In this document: positions 9,335-16,091 of the stretch, in pieces
How the letters are laid out: the number at the start of each line of letters is the position of its first letter
Numbering within the stretch: the stretch's first letter is position 1
DNA from: a virus
Strand: one strand, 5' to 3'
DNA: 22,621 bases
IMG/VR virus record: IMGVR_UViG_3300046616_000326
Coordinates: 1 to 22,621 of that record
Notes under the pieces: generated by a model
The model's input: the letters and a program-made list of their open reading frames with translations, nothing else
Told to the model about the DNA's origin: nothing
Databases searched by the model: none
Position numbers and translations under genes: made by a program

Positions 9335-10041
9335 TCGTCGTCGACTGCCAGCAAGGCACGCCTGAATGGCTTGCCGCGCGTGCCGGCGTGCTGACCGCGA
9401 GCAACTTTCGCACGGCACGCTCGCGCAAGGCAGACGGACGCACGCCGAGCGATACCGCACGGCACCTCGCGTTCAAGCTCGCCATCGAGCGCATCAGCGG
9501 CGTACCGCTCGACGATGACGCGCCCGAAACGTGGCAGATGAAACGCGGGCAACGCCTCGAAGGCGACGCGCGGATTCTGCACGAGGCGGATATCGGCCTG
9601 CGCGTGCGTCCGGTCGGGATCATCCTGACCGACGACAACAAGTTTGGCGCGAGCGCCGACGGCTGGATCGAGTGCCCGCAAAAGGGACCGGGCGGCGCGG
9701 AATACAAGTGCCTGATTGGGCCGAAGGAACTGGAGGCGGTCTACATCGACGACGACCCATCGAAGTACGTCGATCAGATTCAGGGAAACCTGTGGTTGTC
9801 CAATCGCAAGTGGTGGGACTTTTGTGTGTACTGCCCGGCGCTTGAATCCATCGGCCTGCACTTCTACCGGCAGCGCTTGGAACGCGACGACGACTACATC
9901 GAGGAACTCGTCGCGGACCTGTGGCGCTTTGACAGCATGATCGAGTCGTTTCGCGAAAAGCTGCTGATCCGCCAAGCGCGCCGCGAGGGCCGCGAGTATG
10001 TCCCGCCGAGCATGGCCGAATTTGCAGACAGCCCTTTTTGA
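9331..10041 (+). CDS. YqaJ-type (lambda exonuclease-like) recombination nuclease
   Basis: 236 residues from GTG 9331. The N-terminus [20 protein letters not shown] is typical of YqaJ. The PD-(D/E)xK active site is complete: Glu77 in the [10 protein letters not shown] helix, Asp110 in GASADGWI, and Glu124-x-Lys126 in GAEYKC. A later [11 protein letters not shown] helix with its Gln fits the family. It should degrade one strand of DNA ends and load the neighbouring ERF protein on the overhang. Length is normal. A 76-base gap separates it from the RdgC gene. Confidence 0.92.
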
Positions 10042-10117
10042 ATCACCTGATAAACGGCCGGCGCGCCTCGTGCTCGCCTGCCCTCCCGTTCAAACGACAA
10101 CAGATAAAAATCTCACC

Positions 10118-11227
10118 ATGTTTTTCAAGAACCTCACGCTCTACAAGGTCACGCAGTTTCCGATAACCGCCGACGTGCTCGCCGAGCGCCTTGCCAAACT
10201 CGCGTTCGCGCCCTGTACGGACCTTCAACCCAAGTCGGTCGGTTTCATCGAGCCGCATAAGGAAAGCTCGCACGTCTATGCGGTCAATGGCGAAAACCTG
10301 ATTGCGCTGCGCACGCAAAAGCGCAACCTGCCCGGATCGGTCGTCAAAGAGGAGGTCGCGCGCCAAGCCGCCGCCTATGAGAAGGAATACGGCCACAAGC
10401 CCGGCCGCAAGATGCTCAAGGAACTCAAAGAGCGCGCCATCGACGAACTGTTGCCGCAGGCATTCAAGACAAGCCGCACGACGCGCGCATGGCTGTCGCT
10501 CAAAGCCGGCCTGTTCGTGATCGACACGGCCTCGAAGGCGATTGCTGACGACATGATCGGCGCGCTGCTGCAGGCCGTGGGCGAACCGATCAAGATGCAC
10601 CCGCTTGGCACCAACACCGCGCCGAGCACGGCCATGTCCAATTGGCTGCTCGATACGCCGCCCGAGCCTTTCACCATCGACAGCGATGCGCTGTTCGTGA
10701 CGACCAATGGCGGCAACATCAAGTATTCGAACGTCACCATCGAGGGCGAGAACGCGACGCGCGCGCTCGAAGCCGGCCAGCGCCCCGCCGCCCTCGCGCT
10801 GACGTGGGATGACAAGGTTTCATTCGTGCTTGGCGGCAACGGGTCAATCAAGCGCGTGAAGCCGCTCGATATTCTCAAAAGCGAAGCAGAGGCGACGCCC
10901 GATGCGGACATGTTCGCGAATGACTTCGTGATTATGGCGGGCACGCTCACGCAGATGGTCGGCCAATTGGTCGAGTCGCTCGGCGGCGTGCGCGAACAGG
11001 AGGAGGACTTGGCCGACATGGCGGAGGCCGACGACGACCTGCTCGACAAGGCGCAGAAAATTGTGATCGAGAACGGCCGCGCCTCTATCTCGCTCGTGCA
11101 GCGCCATTTGCGCATCGGCTACAACCGCGCCGCCCGCCTGCTCGAAGCGCTGCAGGGTCGCGGCGTCGTGAGCGCAGAGGATTCGTCGACCGGCATGCGC
11201 CGCGTGCTTGCAACGGAGGAAGCGTGA
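10118..11227 (+). CDS. rdgC: RdgC recombination protein with C-terminal FtsK-gamma domain
   Basis: 369 residues from ATG 10118 (the open frame begins at 9998, but homology to RdgC starts exactly at [11 protein letters not shown]). Residues 1-300 follow bacterial RdgC throughout: [41 protein letters not shown] and [20 protein letters not shown]. RdgC is a DNA-binding ring protein that modulates RecA. Bacterial RdgC is about 300 residues and stops here, but this protein continues: residues 305-369 contain [20 protein letters not shown] and [12 protein letters not shown], a winged helix like the FtsK/SpoIIIE gamma domain that reads KOPS sequences. The fusion has no FtsK motor part. No clear ribosome binding site is seen before the start. 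Confidence 0.88.
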
Positions 11228-12047: not shown

Positions 12048-12268
12048 GGAGAATTGTGAAAGAACTGCCGACTTGGCTGCTTGTCGCTGTGCTCGCGTTC
12101 GTGTTTCTGGCAATGCAGGCGAACATGCGCGCCGCCGAGGGCCGTCCGCGGCCGGGCGAACCGGGTTTAGCCTGTGGCGACCGTGCCAAGCCCGACGACA
12201 ACCGGCCGAGCCTGACCAATACAAGCCTCACCGTTTGCGTGCCGGCCCGACCGAAACGCAACGCATAA
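12044..12268 (+). CDS. small exported or membrane-anchored protein
   Basis: 74 residues from GTG 12044 (AGGAGG at 12034-12039); a second in-frame GTG at 12056 also has AGGAG before it. Basic N-terminus RRIVKELP followed by a strong hydrophobic helix (WLLVAVLAFVFLAM), then MRAAEG, which could be a signal-peptidase site. The remaining about 45 residues are Pro/Arg-rich with two Cys (LACGD and TVCVP) that could form a disulphide in the periplasm. Function unknown; it is the last gene before the candidate centromere region. Confidence 0.6.
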   Translation: MRRIVKELPTWLLVAVLAFVFLAMQANMRAAEGRPRPGEPGLACGDRAKPDDNRPSLTNTSLTVCVPARPKRNA

Positions 12269-12281
12269 CACCGCACCAAAC

Positions 12282-12319
12282 CGCACCTGTACTAACCTAA
12301 AGTGTTCTGTACAGGTGCG
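12282..12319. repeat. 11-bp inverted repeat
   Basis: CGCACCTGTAC (12282-12292) and its exact complement GTACAGGTGCG (12309-12319) with a 16-base loop. No T-run follows directly, so it is more likely a protein-binding site than a terminator for the gene ending at 12268. Its inner part overlaps one arm of the long inverted repeat. Confidence 0.65.
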
Positions 12320-12665
12320 CGCCCCTCATTCCGGCCGCCCGCGCGGCGCGCGCCACTTCAAAACAGACGAATTCTCGTCCGCCCGAACCGGTTTTCTTCA
12401 ATCTTGTTTCGGTTTTGTCCGTTTGTTTCGTTTCGACTTGAATCTGACTGTTTAAGGGCCTTTCGTTCGCTCCGACCCAGTTTCGACAAAGCCAAGTCCG
12501 GTCAGACCCAATTTAAACCAACAAAAACACATGTCTTAACACCAATTCTTGTCAGTTTTTAACAGAAAGGGTCAATACGCGTTCGGTTTTTACACAATCA
12601 TTCGGTTTCGACTCAACCTAAATACACCGCACCAAAATAGGTGTGTACAGAACAGTTTAGGTTAG
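12292..12665. repeat. 22-base inverted repeat pair, arms 330 bases apart
   Basis: The arm 12292-12313 (begins CTAACCTAAA) and the arm 12644-12665 (ends TTTAGGTTAG) are reverse complements in 21 of 22 positions. The AT-richer interior has no gene. Bound by a partition protein, the arms could form a loop; alternatively they mark the ends of an old insertion. Confidence 0.7.
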
Positions 12666-12870
12666 GTGTGTTTCGGTTCAGTTCGGTTCGGTGCAACCAA
12701 GCCAAACCTCGCCACGTCCGGTCCGGTGCCCACCGTTGGCCATCCAACACACTTAGCCCGGTTCGGCGGGTACAGGTCACGTCTGACATTGTGTGAAATG
12801 GTGCGTTGGGTTATAAGGAAATCTATACCGATGACACCGATACACCCCGCACCGATAAGGACCGGACCTG

Positions 12871-13548
12871 ATGCCTACCTACGTGTTTGCCCATACCAAG
12901 GGCGGCGTGACCAAGACGACGACCTGCTTGAATATGGCCGTGATGCGCCAGATGGCGGGCCGGCGTGTGTTGCTCGTCGACTCCGACTCCGGGCAGAGCA
13001 CCACGTCTGTCTGTAACGCGCGCAAGCTCGCGGGCCTGCCCGACGTGCCGCACGTCTCGCTCGTGTCCTATCCGCTGGAGGGCGGCGGATGGTATCGCAT
13101 CGACCCGGATATCCAACGCCTGCAGAACTCCGGCAAGTACGACGACATTCTGATTGACGCGGGCGGGGAGGGGCACGGCTCGCCGGAGATTCGCGGCGCG
13201 CTGCTCGTCGCCGACGTGGTCGTGACGCCGTGCCGGCCGCCCAAGCTCGATTCCGAGCGCCTCACGAACATGAACAGCATTATCGGCGAGGTTCGCTCGC
13301 TCAATCCGAAACTGCGTGCGCTGCTCTTTCCGTCGGCCGCAAGCACCAACGCGAAGAAAAGCGACGTGACCGATTTCTACGCGAACGTAGCGAAGTTTCG
13401 CGAATACACGGTCATGGATGCCGTCGTGCGCGACCGCGACGCCTACAAAAAGCTGCTCGAAACGGCGGAGGTCATCGTCGAGCAGAAGCGCCCGCCCAAG
13501 GAAGCGCTCAACGAAATGGCGGAACTGTACAAGGAGATTTTTGCATGA
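12871..13548 (+). CDS. parA: ParA-type partition ATPase (small, type Ib-like)
   Basis: 225 residues from ATG 12871, AAGGAC upstream. Deviant Walker A motif KGGVTKTT (residues 10-17) with the signature lysine 10 and Lys15, the Walker A' strand LLVDSD (34-39), and the Walker B-type ILIDAGG (93-99). The A' region reads SDSGQST instead of the usual D-P-Q. No N-terminal HTH is present, as in short type Ib ParA proteins, where the small partner protein does the autoregulation. It should pattern on the nucleoid and move plasmid copies together with its partner. The stop overlaps the next gene as ATGA. Confidence 0.9.
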   Translation: MPTYVFAHTKGGVTKTTTCLNMAVMRQMAGRRVLLVDSDSGQSTTSVCNARKLAGLPDVPHVSLVSYPLEGGGWYRIDPDIQRLQNSGKYDDILIDAGGEGHGSPEIRGALLVADVVVTPCRPPKLDSERLTNMNSIIGEVRSLNPKLRALLFPSAASTNAKKSDVTDFYANVAKFREYTVMDAVVRDRDAYKKLLETAEVIVEQKRPPKEALNEMAELYKEIFA

Positions 13549-14045
13549 GCGACGCCAAGCAACCGACCGCGAGCGAACTGAAGCGCCAGCGCGAGCGCGA
13601 GGAGCGCATGGCCCTGTTCGCGCAAAGCGATGCGCGCCCGGCCAATACCGACCTCTCGACCATTCTCGGCACGGAGGAGGGCGCGCAACCCGTGGCGCAG
13701 CCGCCTGATCCACCCGCGGTGCAGCCTCAAACTGAGGTCGGACCCGAAAAGGCCGCACAAGCGCCCGCCGCGCCCGCCGACGACCCAACGCCCGCGCCGA
13801 CGGCCGCGAGGCCCGCCAAGGCCGCAAAAACCGCCCCGCCGCCCAAAAAGAAAGCCGAGCCTGAGCCGTGGCGCGAGTTCGTGCCGGACAAGGCCAAGGG
13901 TTTCACGACCACCTTTGATCCTGAGCTACACGCGCGGCTCGTCTGGATTACCGAAACCGTGCCGAAAATGTCGATTCAGAAAATCGTCAAAGCGGCCGTG
14001 CTGGAGTACGCCGAAAAACTGATCGCGGAGCACACCAAGCCATGA
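13545..14045 (+). CDS. parB: partition partner with C-terminal ribbon-helix-helix domain
   Basis: 166 residues from ATG 13545 (ATGA overlap with parA). The N-terminal about 115 residues are charged, then Pro/Ala-rich and probably disordered. The C-terminal 50 residues (KGFTTTFDPELHARL... MSIQKIVKAAVLEYAEKL) fit a ribbon-helix-helix fold: a short strand followed by two helices. In type Ib systems such a protein binds the centromere and stimulates ParA through its flexible N-terminus. It is not a classical ParB with the CTPase fold. The domain is deduced from pattern, not from a search. Confidence 0.68.
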   Translation: MSDAKQPTASELKRQREREERMALFAQSDARPANTDLSTILGTEEGAQPVAQPPDPPAVQPQTEVGPEKAAQAPAAPADDPTPAPTAARPAKAAKTAPPPKKKAEPEPWREFVPDKAKGFTTTFDPELHARLVWITETVPKMSIQKIVKAAVLEYAEKLIAEHTKP

Positions 14046-14389
14046 ACGTTCAATACGAATTGAAAAAAGGCGTTCGCCTGAGCGCCGATGACGTGACCAT
14101 CGTCGGCGAGCAACCGCGCGCCATCGCGCCTGCGCCCGTGCGCGATGCGCGCCAGCAAGCGCTCGACCTCAAGCCGCGCCCCGAGCGCGAGCGCCGGCCG
14201 TGGGAGGACGCAAACCCGCGCGTCAAAACGTCGATCCGCCTCGAAATGGACGAAGCCCTGAAGCTCAAACTCGACTGGATCAAAGAGCACTTTCCGAACA
14301 GCGCTATCAGTGCCGTGTGTCGCCGGGCCGTCGAGAAAGAGGCCGCGCGCCTGATTGCCGAATGGGATGCGACGCATCCGAGCGCCTAA
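14042..14389 (+). CDS. second ribbon-helix-helix protein of the partition operon
   Basis: 115 residues from ATG 14042, again with an ATGA overlap. Layout resembles its neighbour: a flexible Arg/Pro-rich N-terminal half, then VKTSIRLEMDEALKLKLDWI... SAISAVCRRAVEKEAARL (about residues 61-102), a strand plus two helices as in RHH proteins. It may be a diverged duplicate of the upstream gene. One of the two could bind the centromere and the other act as repressor, or they may form mixed dimers. A terminator follows at 14411. Confidence 0.62.
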   Translation: MNVQYELKKGVRLSADDVTIVGEQPRAIAPAPVRDARQQALDLKPRPERERRPWEDANPRVKTSIRLEMDEALKLKLDWIKEHFPNSAISAVCRRAVEKEAARLIAEWDATHPSA

Positions 14390-14525: not shown

Positions 14526-14688
14526 CGCGCCCCAAGGCCCGCCGCGTAAGGGTTTGCGGGCGGATAGGTGACGGTTTGCGGTGCCAAAAGTGACGGTCTG
14601 CGGGGAACTAAGGTGACGGTCTACGGGGAAAGGTGACGGTTTGCGGGGTTTGGGGCCAGATAGCCCGAAATCACGCCTAAGTATATGA

Positions 14689-14716
14689 TTGCAAACGATA
14701 AAGAAGTGTCTATATC
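14689..14716 (+). promoter_or_regulatory. promoter-like sequence between the iteron clusters
   Basis: TTGCAA (14689-14694), 16-base spacer, TATATC (14711-14716). The operator-like site 14700-14713 fills the spacer and touches the -10, the same arrangement as at the two early promoters. It would make a transcript through iteron cluster 2 toward rep. Confidence 0.45.
14700..14713. promoter_or_regulatory. repressor-type operator inside the plasmid origin
   Basis: AAAGAAGTGTCTAT, one mismatch to the consensus and close to the site at 471-484. It is in the gap between the two iteron clusters. A repressor bound here could block transcription through the origin or influence Rep assembly. Confidence 0.6.
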
Positions 14717-14820
14717 GGTTTGGCGGGTGACGGTCTATGGGACAAAGGTGACGGTTTATGGGGAAAGGTGACGGTCTGCGGGGAAGGTGACTCGCCAAGC
14801 GTTGTTATTTGGTACGAAAG

Positions 14821-14863
14821 GTGACGCTTGCGCATTGCGCACGTCACTTTTGCACCCTACAAT
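14821..14863 (+). promoter_or_regulatory. rep promoter with inverted-repeat Rep operator
   Basis: TTGCGC (14835-14840), 17-base spacer, TACAAT (14858-14863). The -35 lies in an inverted repeat made of iteron-like arms: GTGACG and TGCGC (14821-14833) against GCGCA and CGTCAC (14837-14847). In iteron plasmids Rep dimers bind such a repeat and repress their own gene. The start would be near 14870, just before the ribosome binding site at 14877. Confidence 0.75.
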
Positions 14864-14888
14864 GCGCGGCAGAACTAGGAGAACGAAA

Positions 14889-16091
14889 TTGGCTACACAG
14901 CCCCTAAAGGTTTTGGACAAGCTGCCCGCCGACGTGCGCAAACACGTTGCAGCCATCCATGTCGGAGGAAGTCTCGGATTGGTCGAGCGAAAGCTAATCA
15001 ACGTGCTTTTGCTGAACGCTTTCGACCATCTGAGCGAGGACAATCGCACGCATACTATCGCGGTGCCGTTGCTGCTCGAAACGATGGATTGGGGCGGCAG
15101 CAAAAACATTGAGCACTTGCGCGCAGCCCTCACGACCCTCGCGACCACGCCCATCATTTTCGACCGACTCAAAGATGGCAAGGGAAAATGGTCCGTCATG
15201 ACCGCGCTATCGTTCGCCGAGATTGCAAACGGCGTGTGCTCATACCGCTACGACAAAGGGCTTTCGCAACAGCTTGCCGATCCTGCGATGTACGCGAAAA
15301 TCAACATCAACATTCAGAACCAGTTCGATAGCGCGTATGCCCTCGCGCTCTACGAGAACTGTTACCGATTCCACAAGGTAGGCGGCCCGCGCCCGATTGG
15401 GCTTGATGTATGGCGCGAGCTACTGGGTGCGCAAGCGCCGGTCTACAACGAGTTCAAATACCTTTCTCAACGAGTATTGACGCCCGCCATCAAGCGCGTG
15501 AATGCCGTCTCGAACATTGATATTGAAATGGTCGTAATCCGCGAAAACCGCAAGGTCGTCGCGCTGAAATTCAAGGTGACGGAAAAGGCGCAGAAGTCCA
15601 TCAACGACATGCCGGGTGATCCCGACGACGTGATCCGTGAAACCGAGGCATTCGCTCTGTTGAGCAAGTGCGATATCGGCGCGAGGCTTGCAATCCAATG
15701 GATTCGCGACGACCCGCAAAAGGCGTTGCGCGTGGCAAAGGAAACGCTCGCGCGCGACGCGAAGCAACAGATTAAGTCGAGCCGGGCAGGGTATGCGCGC
15801 GCCTCGTTCGAGAATGGTGACGTAACGGACGTTCCCGATACGACCGGGGATGAAACCGCGCCGCCCAAGCTGCCGCACGAGCATCCTGACGAGCGCGAGA
15901 AGGATCGCCGCGCCGATGCCGCTCGCCGGGCAGCGGCGGCATTGACCGATGAGCAACGCGCGGCCCTGCGCGCCGCCTATATCGCCGCGCATCCGGGCGC
16001 GGCATTCAGCACGGAAACTGGAAAGTGGAATAGCGCGGCGCACACGACGGGCTATCGCGCGTTCGAGCGAGCACAGAACAATGCGCGATAA
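14889..16091 (+). CDS. repA: plasmid replication initiator, Rep_3 (RepB-type) family
   Basis: 400 residues from TTG 14889, preceded by AGGAGAA (14877-14883). The frame is open from 14787, but upstream starts, including ATG 14862, lie in or before the promoter and so cannot be used from it. The two winged-helix layout of iteron-binding initiators is visible: LVERKLINVLLLNAFDHL (about residues 31-48), the SYRYDKGLSQQLADPAMYAKI segment in two parts, SAYALALYENCYRF, and WRELLGAQA...EFKYLSQRVLTPAI in the second half, followed by a beta strand region and a charged Ala/Arg C-terminal extension of about 130 residues. It binds the iterons upstream, opens the origin and limits copy number. Confidence 0.88.
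   Translation: MATQPLKVLDKLPADVRKHVAAIHVGGSLGLVERKLINVLLLNAFDHLSEDNRTHTIAVPLLLETMDWGGSKNIEHLRAALTTLATTPIIFDRLKDGKGKWSVMTALSFAEIANGVCSYRYDKGLSQQLADPAMYAKININIQNQFDSAYALALYENCYRFHKVGGPRPIGLDVWRELLGAQAPVYNEFKYLSQRVLTPAIKRVNAVSNIDIEMVVIRENRKVVALKFKVTEKAQKSINDMPGDPDDVIRETEAFALLSKCDIGARLAIQWIRDDPQKALRVAKETLARDAKQQIKSSRAGYARASFENGDVTDVPDTTGDETAPPKLPHEHPDEREKDRRADAARRAAAALTDEQRAALRAAYIAAHPGAAFSTETGKWNSAAHTTGYRAFERAQNNAR

Follow-up and report, generated by a model that had tools for sequence, protein, structure and literature searches.

We analyzed a 22,621-nt stretch of viral DNA (IMG/VR record IMGVR_UViG_3300046616_000326, positions 1 to 22,621; hereafter the window), which is a complete 22.6-kb virus record, and found that the region directly upstream of its parA gene forms a long array with an exact 5-bp period. 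The array is a real, functional-looking feature. Its register is conserved in a related plasmid, and arrays of this kind go together with one family of small genes, encoded downstream of parA, whose products resemble ribbon-helix-helix (RHH) proteins. We consider it likely that the region is a type Ib-like partition site, a predicted centromere that would also act as the parA operator and be coated by RHH proteins in 5-bp register. An earlier note on this DNA had proposed a new kind of centromere, the site of a regulatory RNA, or the trace of an inserted element. The first is the best supported of these options, but its basis is the 5-bp register and not the nested inverted repeats.

A 5-bp register upstream of parA

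The gap lies between a small open reading frame (ORF) ending at 12268 and parA, which begins at 12871. As previously described, it is gene-free (ORFs called mechanically within it lack support as genes) and lower in GC content than the whole window (0.508 versus 0.612). Homologous gaps were compared from plasmid pBVIE05 of Burkholderia vietnamiensis G4 (CP000621; locus L004) and from an IMG/VR contig, L008. A motif search across the three gaps found no single word but instead a pattern of period 5. Autocorrelation peaks appeared at lags of 5, 10, 15, and onward to 40, and the spectral peak fell at exactly 5.00 in all three. Period-5 Fourier power was 11.1 in the window, 14.6 in pBVIE05, and 5.8 in L008, with a shuffle mean near 0.76; for the window, the maximum among 20,000 dinucleotide shuffles was 4.8, and the power of 1,025 other 602-bp stretches of the window never exceeded 2.8.

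The array covers about 12130 to 12870 (~700 bp, about 140 degenerate units), starting upstream of the gap inside the 3' end of the preceding ORF and ending at parA. Its pattern resides at the purine/pyrimidine level and is strand-symmetric, with the consensus YYNRR.

12130 to 12315, strandless: sub-array 1, about 1 base out of phase with the main array and overlapping the 3' end of the preceding ORF; power 8.0, shuffle maximum 3.1
12316 to 12344, strandless: GC-rich interruption between the sub-arrays, with a weak period-5 signal; the phase changes around here
12345 to 12870, strandless: main array of about 104 YYNRR units at 12347+5k; power 13.5, shuffle maximum 3.2 (2000 shuffles)

In the frame of the main array, 57 of the 104 pentamers read nYnRn and 32 read YYnRR, whereas the other four frames gave 5 to 41 and 0 to 9, respectively. 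The phase is 1.8 to 1.9 in sub-array 1 versus about 2.5 to 3 in the main array, and a shift of equal size (from 0.6-0.9 to 1.5-1.9) is found at the matching place in pBVIE05.

The exact 5-bp phase, which the earlier note missed, is a common cause behind many of the repeats first reported there. The repeats themselves are present. The 22-nt inverted repeat, with arms at 12292-12313 and 12644-12665 (21/22, 95%), has the top score (19) among ungapped inverted repeats of the gap, a value that one shuffle in 200 also attained. A perfect 11-bp inverted repeat occupies 12282-12292 and 12309-12319, and TTCGGTT occurs five times in the gap against 0.26 expected (1 of 1000 shuffles). The 13-base direct repeats were also recovered but are weak alone, since the best direct repeat was equalled in 7 of 200 shuffles. 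With the two inverted-repeat blocks and the TTCGGTT words scrambled, the period-5 power fell from 11.1 but at 6.5 remained above the shuffles. When relatives are compared, the register is kept but the 22-bp inverted repeat is not: the pBVIE05 and L008 gaps contain no comparable inverted repeat, their best ones falling in the shuffle range, and we therefore rejected it as the key element. One part of it lies in a conserved site.

12282 to 12319: conserved site 1, CGCACCTGTAC-N16-GTACAGGTGCG, containing ACCTAAAGTGTTCTGTACAGG; near-identical in pBVIE05
12644 to 12665, minus strand: the other arm of the 22-nt inverted repeat, which pBVIE05 does not preserve as such

Within site 1, the portion at 12290-12315 is conserved in pBVIE05, and a 14-bp exact anchor, TGTTCTGTACAGGT, is common to both.

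Conservation of the register in pBVIE05

The window and pBVIE05 have the same gene order, array position, and register, but their array sequences have diverged, and the inverted repeat and the replication iterons differ as well. Because periodic sequence biases gap lengths, those of pairwise alignments were excluded as independent evidence, and exact-word anchors were used in their place. Among exact words of at least 9 bases common to the two sequences, the longest colinear chain comprised nine anchors. Their offsets were 14, 14, 49, 144, 39, 89, 89, 104, and 104, all equal to 4 modulo 5, with spacing changes of +35, +95, -105, +50, and +15. One 9-base anchor, at 12430, is doubtful; if it is dropped, four changes in spacing are left (35, -10, 50, and 15). 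All are multiples of 5, an outcome with a chance probability of about 0.0016 if the changes are independent, although short anchors may themselves favor in-phase matches.

Arrays at other parA loci

Arrays are also present upstream of parA in a 106-kb Cupriavidus metallidurans plasmid (L012), whose ParA is about 33% identical, and in two viral contigs (L030 and L024). In the Cupriavidus plasmid the pattern is visible by eye (ATATC ATATG ATTTG), with ATSAT as the unit. When gaps were tested one by one, six loci lay above all 2000 shuffles, and no coherent period 5 was found at ten ParA loci of phages or of plasmids without the RHH family. Contig L024 carries a second period-5 stretch (positions 20 to 220, power 7.1) near its start, which overlaps the beginning of a ligase-like ORF; the array in front of parA follows about 1.3 kb later.

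The survey comprised 122 ParA loci, most of them collected by ParA similarity alone, and a hidden Markov model (HMM) of the RHH family was built from eight RHH-like domains of the six array loci. An array was counted as strong when its combined power at the 5- and 2.5-bp periods exceeded 10, a cut-off chosen after the values had been seen. Strong arrays occurred at 11 of the 122 loci; the next best value was 5.8. Each of them sits immediately before parA, and every one of the 11 loci encodes the RHH family downstream of that gene. Besides the window, at least ten viral or plasmid elements carry the pattern. Outside the HMM training set, the family is found at five of five array loci (L131, L057, L053, L052, and L074) versus 4 of 111 non-array loci (L032, L094, L095, and L075). 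The corresponding Fisher p of 7.9e-7 is approximate because the cut-off was post hoc and some contigs were counted twice (a few non-array ones, e.g., L040/L083 and L028/L082). The hits L007 and L005 were spurious.

Genes downstream of the array

The array is followed by three overlapping genes and, further on, by a replication module.

12871 to 13548, plus strand: parA, a short ParA/MipZ-like Walker ATPase of 225 aa (Pfam AAA_31/CbiA; PHROG 164, ParA-like)
13545 to 14045, plus strand: RHH1, 166 aa, the proposed centromere-binding protein, with an NTDLSTILG motif and a C-terminal RHH-like domain
14042 to 14389, plus strand: RHH2, 115 aa, RHH-like; its C-terminal 60 residues are near-identical to pBVIE05
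14567 to 14782, plus strand: seven iterons, GGTGACGGTYTRYGGG, before rep and separate from the array
14787 to 16091, plus strand: rep, a Rep3-family replication initiator (Pfam Rep3_N and Rep3_C)

The ParA sequence matches Soj and ParF chains. Two type Ib traits are found at this locus: repeats upstream of parA, and a short ParA whose P-loop starts at residue 10, leaving no space for an N-terminal helix-turn-helix domain. A deviant Walker A motif, KGGVTKTTT (residues about 10-18; the usual form is KGGVGKTT), occurs in the ParA of the window, pBVIE05, and L008 and is absent in L012, L024, and L030.

The two small genes after parA overlap their neighbors by a few bases. That they encode RHH proteins, as had been suggested, is plausible by position, length, and residue pattern, but structure prediction and PDB/Pfam searches did not confirm the fold; the assignment of both thus draws on pattern and context. 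RHH1 has a disordered N-terminal part and a disordered middle rich in proline and alanine, and neither protein had a sequence match to ParG in the PDB search. RHH2 is unusually conserved, at about 93% identity between the window and pBVIE05 (counterpart at L004:10133-10477) versus 68% for ParA and 64% for RHH1. The Cupriavidus plasmid encodes a single protein of this kind, which is homologous to RHH2 (BLASTP E 1e-8) and carries DLSSIIG near its N terminus.

The iterons at 14567-14782 are the probable replication origin. Their counterparts in pBVIE05 (L004:10648-10963), AGAGCATAGTTTGCGGGA, are wholly unlike GGTGACGGTYTRYGGG despite the synteny, suggesting that replication specificity has been exchanged. 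A role of the array as an iteron replication origin was rejected, since the iterons sit elsewhere, before rep.

The source element and its upstream genes

The window encodes an S24-type repressor, ERF, YqaJ and RdgC recombination genes, a GH19 lysis gene, the Rep3 initiator, and ParA, along with a weak holin match. Together with its relatives, this gene content fits a phage-plasmid. Within the plasmid collection pBVIE05 is the sole DNA relative, and it is named in no paper in the literature searched, which included few subscription papers; the ParA of the third relative, L008, is 63% identical in its best segment.

12058 to 12268, plus strand: small conserved ORF of 70 codons from the GTG at 12058; its 3' part carries sub-array 1

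This ORF has counterparts at about L004:8049-8273 (unannotated in pBVIE05) and about L008:9154-9369. Its product, which has a hydrophobic N-terminal segment, is probably a membrane or exported protein. The 3' end bears the 5-bp pattern in both the window and pBVIE05, and one stretch of DNA may therefore serve codons and array alike.

Further upstream, RdgC is fused to an FtsK gamma DNA-binding domain (window 9998-11227; L004:5226-6335; L008:6898-8055). The fusion is confirmed by Pfam in the window, and the same C-terminal sequence is visible in both close relatives. It could tie dimer resolution or KOPS-like sites to recombination. A Xer dif-like site, considered because of this fusion, was dropped, as no resemblance to dif was seen by eye.

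Comparison with known partition systems

Known RHH centromeres were compared with the array by their published descriptions. Type Ib systems have their centromere upstream of parA; it is bound by a small RHH protein, encoded after parA, whose tail activates ParA (PMC5016525). Each 7-bp repeat of pSM19035 takes one RHH dimer, and ParA is activated only when four or more repeats are contiguous (PMC9499535). The parS/omega (ParB-pSM) system of pSM19035 is like the array in its contiguous short repeats, which in pSM19035 are bound by RHH dimers, and in their overlap with par gene promoters. Each of its sites, however, consists of 7 to 10 defined, non-palindromic heptads (WATCACW), whereas the array is one block of about 140 degenerate 5-bp units. 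Nor does the array have the 7-bp period of this class: period-7 power was 1.66 in the window (marginal, 22 of 300 shuffles), 0.55 in pBVIE05, and 0.13 in L008 (both nonsignificant).

In parH of TP228, tetramer boxes with spacers give a period of about 8 bp. The array lacks this box-spacer period, consisting instead of contiguous pentamers without spacers, and is far longer; period 8 was nonsignificant in the window, pBVIE05, and L008, and period 4 was elevated in the window only (2.7). What parH and its ParG/ParF proteins (type Ib) would have in common with the locus is a centromere upstream of a small parA, a disordered N-terminal tail on the RHH protein, and degenerate boxes (PMC7308502, PMC5016525). 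The ParR/parC systems (type II: R1, pSK41, and pB171) also have phased repeats upstream of the operon, bound there by RHH proteins (PMC5016525), but they use an actin-like ParM motor and repeats of about 10 bp, in contrast to the Walker ParA neighbor and 5-bp units found here. With a Walker ParA in place of an actin- or tubulin-like motor, the locus belongs neither to type II (ParMRC) nor to type III (TubZRC).

Described RHH centromeres thus consist of 7-bp heptads, tetramer boxes with spacers, or repeats of about 10 bp (PMC5016525, PMC7308502, PMC9499535). No description of a 5-bp-phased partition site was found in the literature searched, and we therefore read the array as a variant of RHH centromeres with a real chance of being a class of its own. 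The 5-bp-phased site is probably a previously undescribed kind of partition "handle."

A model for partition

By analogy with type Ib systems and pSM19035, dimers of RHH1 and/or RHH2 would place their two-stranded beta-ribbons on successive pentamers. A step of five base pairs turns the helix by about 171 degrees, roughly half a turn, so that adjacent dimers would lie on opposite faces of the DNA and next-nearest dimers 10 bp apart on one face. The dimers may in this manner coat the DNA as a two-sided filament, which would constitute the partition complex. A DLSxIxG motif marks the disordered N-terminal tail of RHH1 and of the Cupriavidus protein; through this tail the dimers would touch ParA and stimulate ATP hydrolysis, and nucleoid-bound ParA would then move and separate the plasmid copies. 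RHH binding would also repress parA-rhh1-rhh2, because the array covers the parA promoter.

12789 to 12817, plus strand: putative parA promoter, TTGTGT-17-TATAAG, inside the array; read by eye, in a block conserved in pBVIE05 (14-bp exact anchor)

A consensus promoter scan of the sequence detected no promoter.

Several observations weigh against RHH-mediated partition at the array. AlphaFold models of the RHH proteins show the two expected C-terminal helices but no strand, and their confidence is low, also in the N-terminal parts; the proteins have no Pfam match, and PDB sequence and Foldseek fold searches were uninformative. Complementarity of paired bases within units did not exceed the expectation from composition in the window, pBVIE05, or L008. 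We therefore rejected palindromic units, and one dimer per pentamer is a model. Among the other loci, L030 owes part of its signal to a 15-bp tandem repeat, L074 is strong at the 2.5-bp harmonic only, L032 has an RHH family gene (found by HMM) and no significant coherent array, and L094, L095, and L075 have weaker RHH matches and no strong array. A short CTA/TAG-rich stretch before parA in L032 (2838-2918) appears partly pentamer-spaced by eye and is nonsignificant.

In our judgment it is evenly balanced whether the arrays form a distinct centromere class, in which a dedicated RHH family coats 200 to 800 bp on both faces in a strict 5-bp register. In such a class a degenerate purine/pyrimidine pattern would be read, so that register and length, and not a consensus word, would define the site.

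Alternative explanations

Other roles for the array would account for part of the evidence. It is unlikely that the array is mainly a regulatory operator for RHH autorepression of parA, with the true centromere elsewhere. A conserved promoter-like block does lie within it, and RHH centromere-binding proteins double as repressors (PMC5016525), but tens of bases suffice for an operator, compared with about 700 bp of register reaching into the preceding ORF, and the window contains no second period-5 stretch. It is more doubtful still that the period serves another protein, such as RdgC-FtsKgamma or Rep, at a recombination, dimer-resolution, or replication site. RdgC-FtsKgamma is encoded upstream in the window, pBVIE05, and L008; the arrays, however, track the parA-adjacent RHH family, and Rep is served by iterons of its own, whose sequences in the window and pBVIE05 differ although the two share the pentamer phase.

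Marginally less credible again is a decayed 5-bp microsatellite whose phase has been kept by descent without selection. A period of 5 is the size of such a unit, and L030 retains a 15-bp tandem repeat. Decay of a single repeat would not be expected to leave a strand-symmetric pattern at the purine/pyrimidine level with a consensus that changes from lineage to lineage (YYNRR for the window and ATSAT for Cupriavidus); moreover, the register survives indels, and distant loci have in common both the position before parA and the RHH family. As for the remaining options of the earlier note, a regulatory RNA is highly improbable, given that no terminator was found, that Rfam gave nothing above the gathering score (a chance match to mir-24 stayed below it), and that the folding signal (z = -2.9, from 20 shuffles only) would be produced by the long inverted repeat and the self-complementary periodic pattern; no RNA structure is known to require a 5-bp phase across 700 bp. 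The trace of an inserted element is unsupported, since homologous syntenic gaps are present in pBVIE05 and L008.

Implications

Partition sites are usually located via their repeats, and this array has a register and almost no conserved repeat word. Alignment or repeat tools would miss it, whereas it stands out at once in a Fourier test, which also ties it to one RHH family. If the arrays do form a distinct class, that class recurs in unrelated phage-plasmids and plasmids and escapes ordinary repeat searches. The arrangement also poses a structural puzzle, namely how RHH dimers would pack at 5 bp, compared with the 7-bp repeats, spaced boxes, or repeats of about 10 bp on which they sit elsewhere. 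The period-5 rule offers a testable route to the centromeres of many unannotated phage-plasmids.
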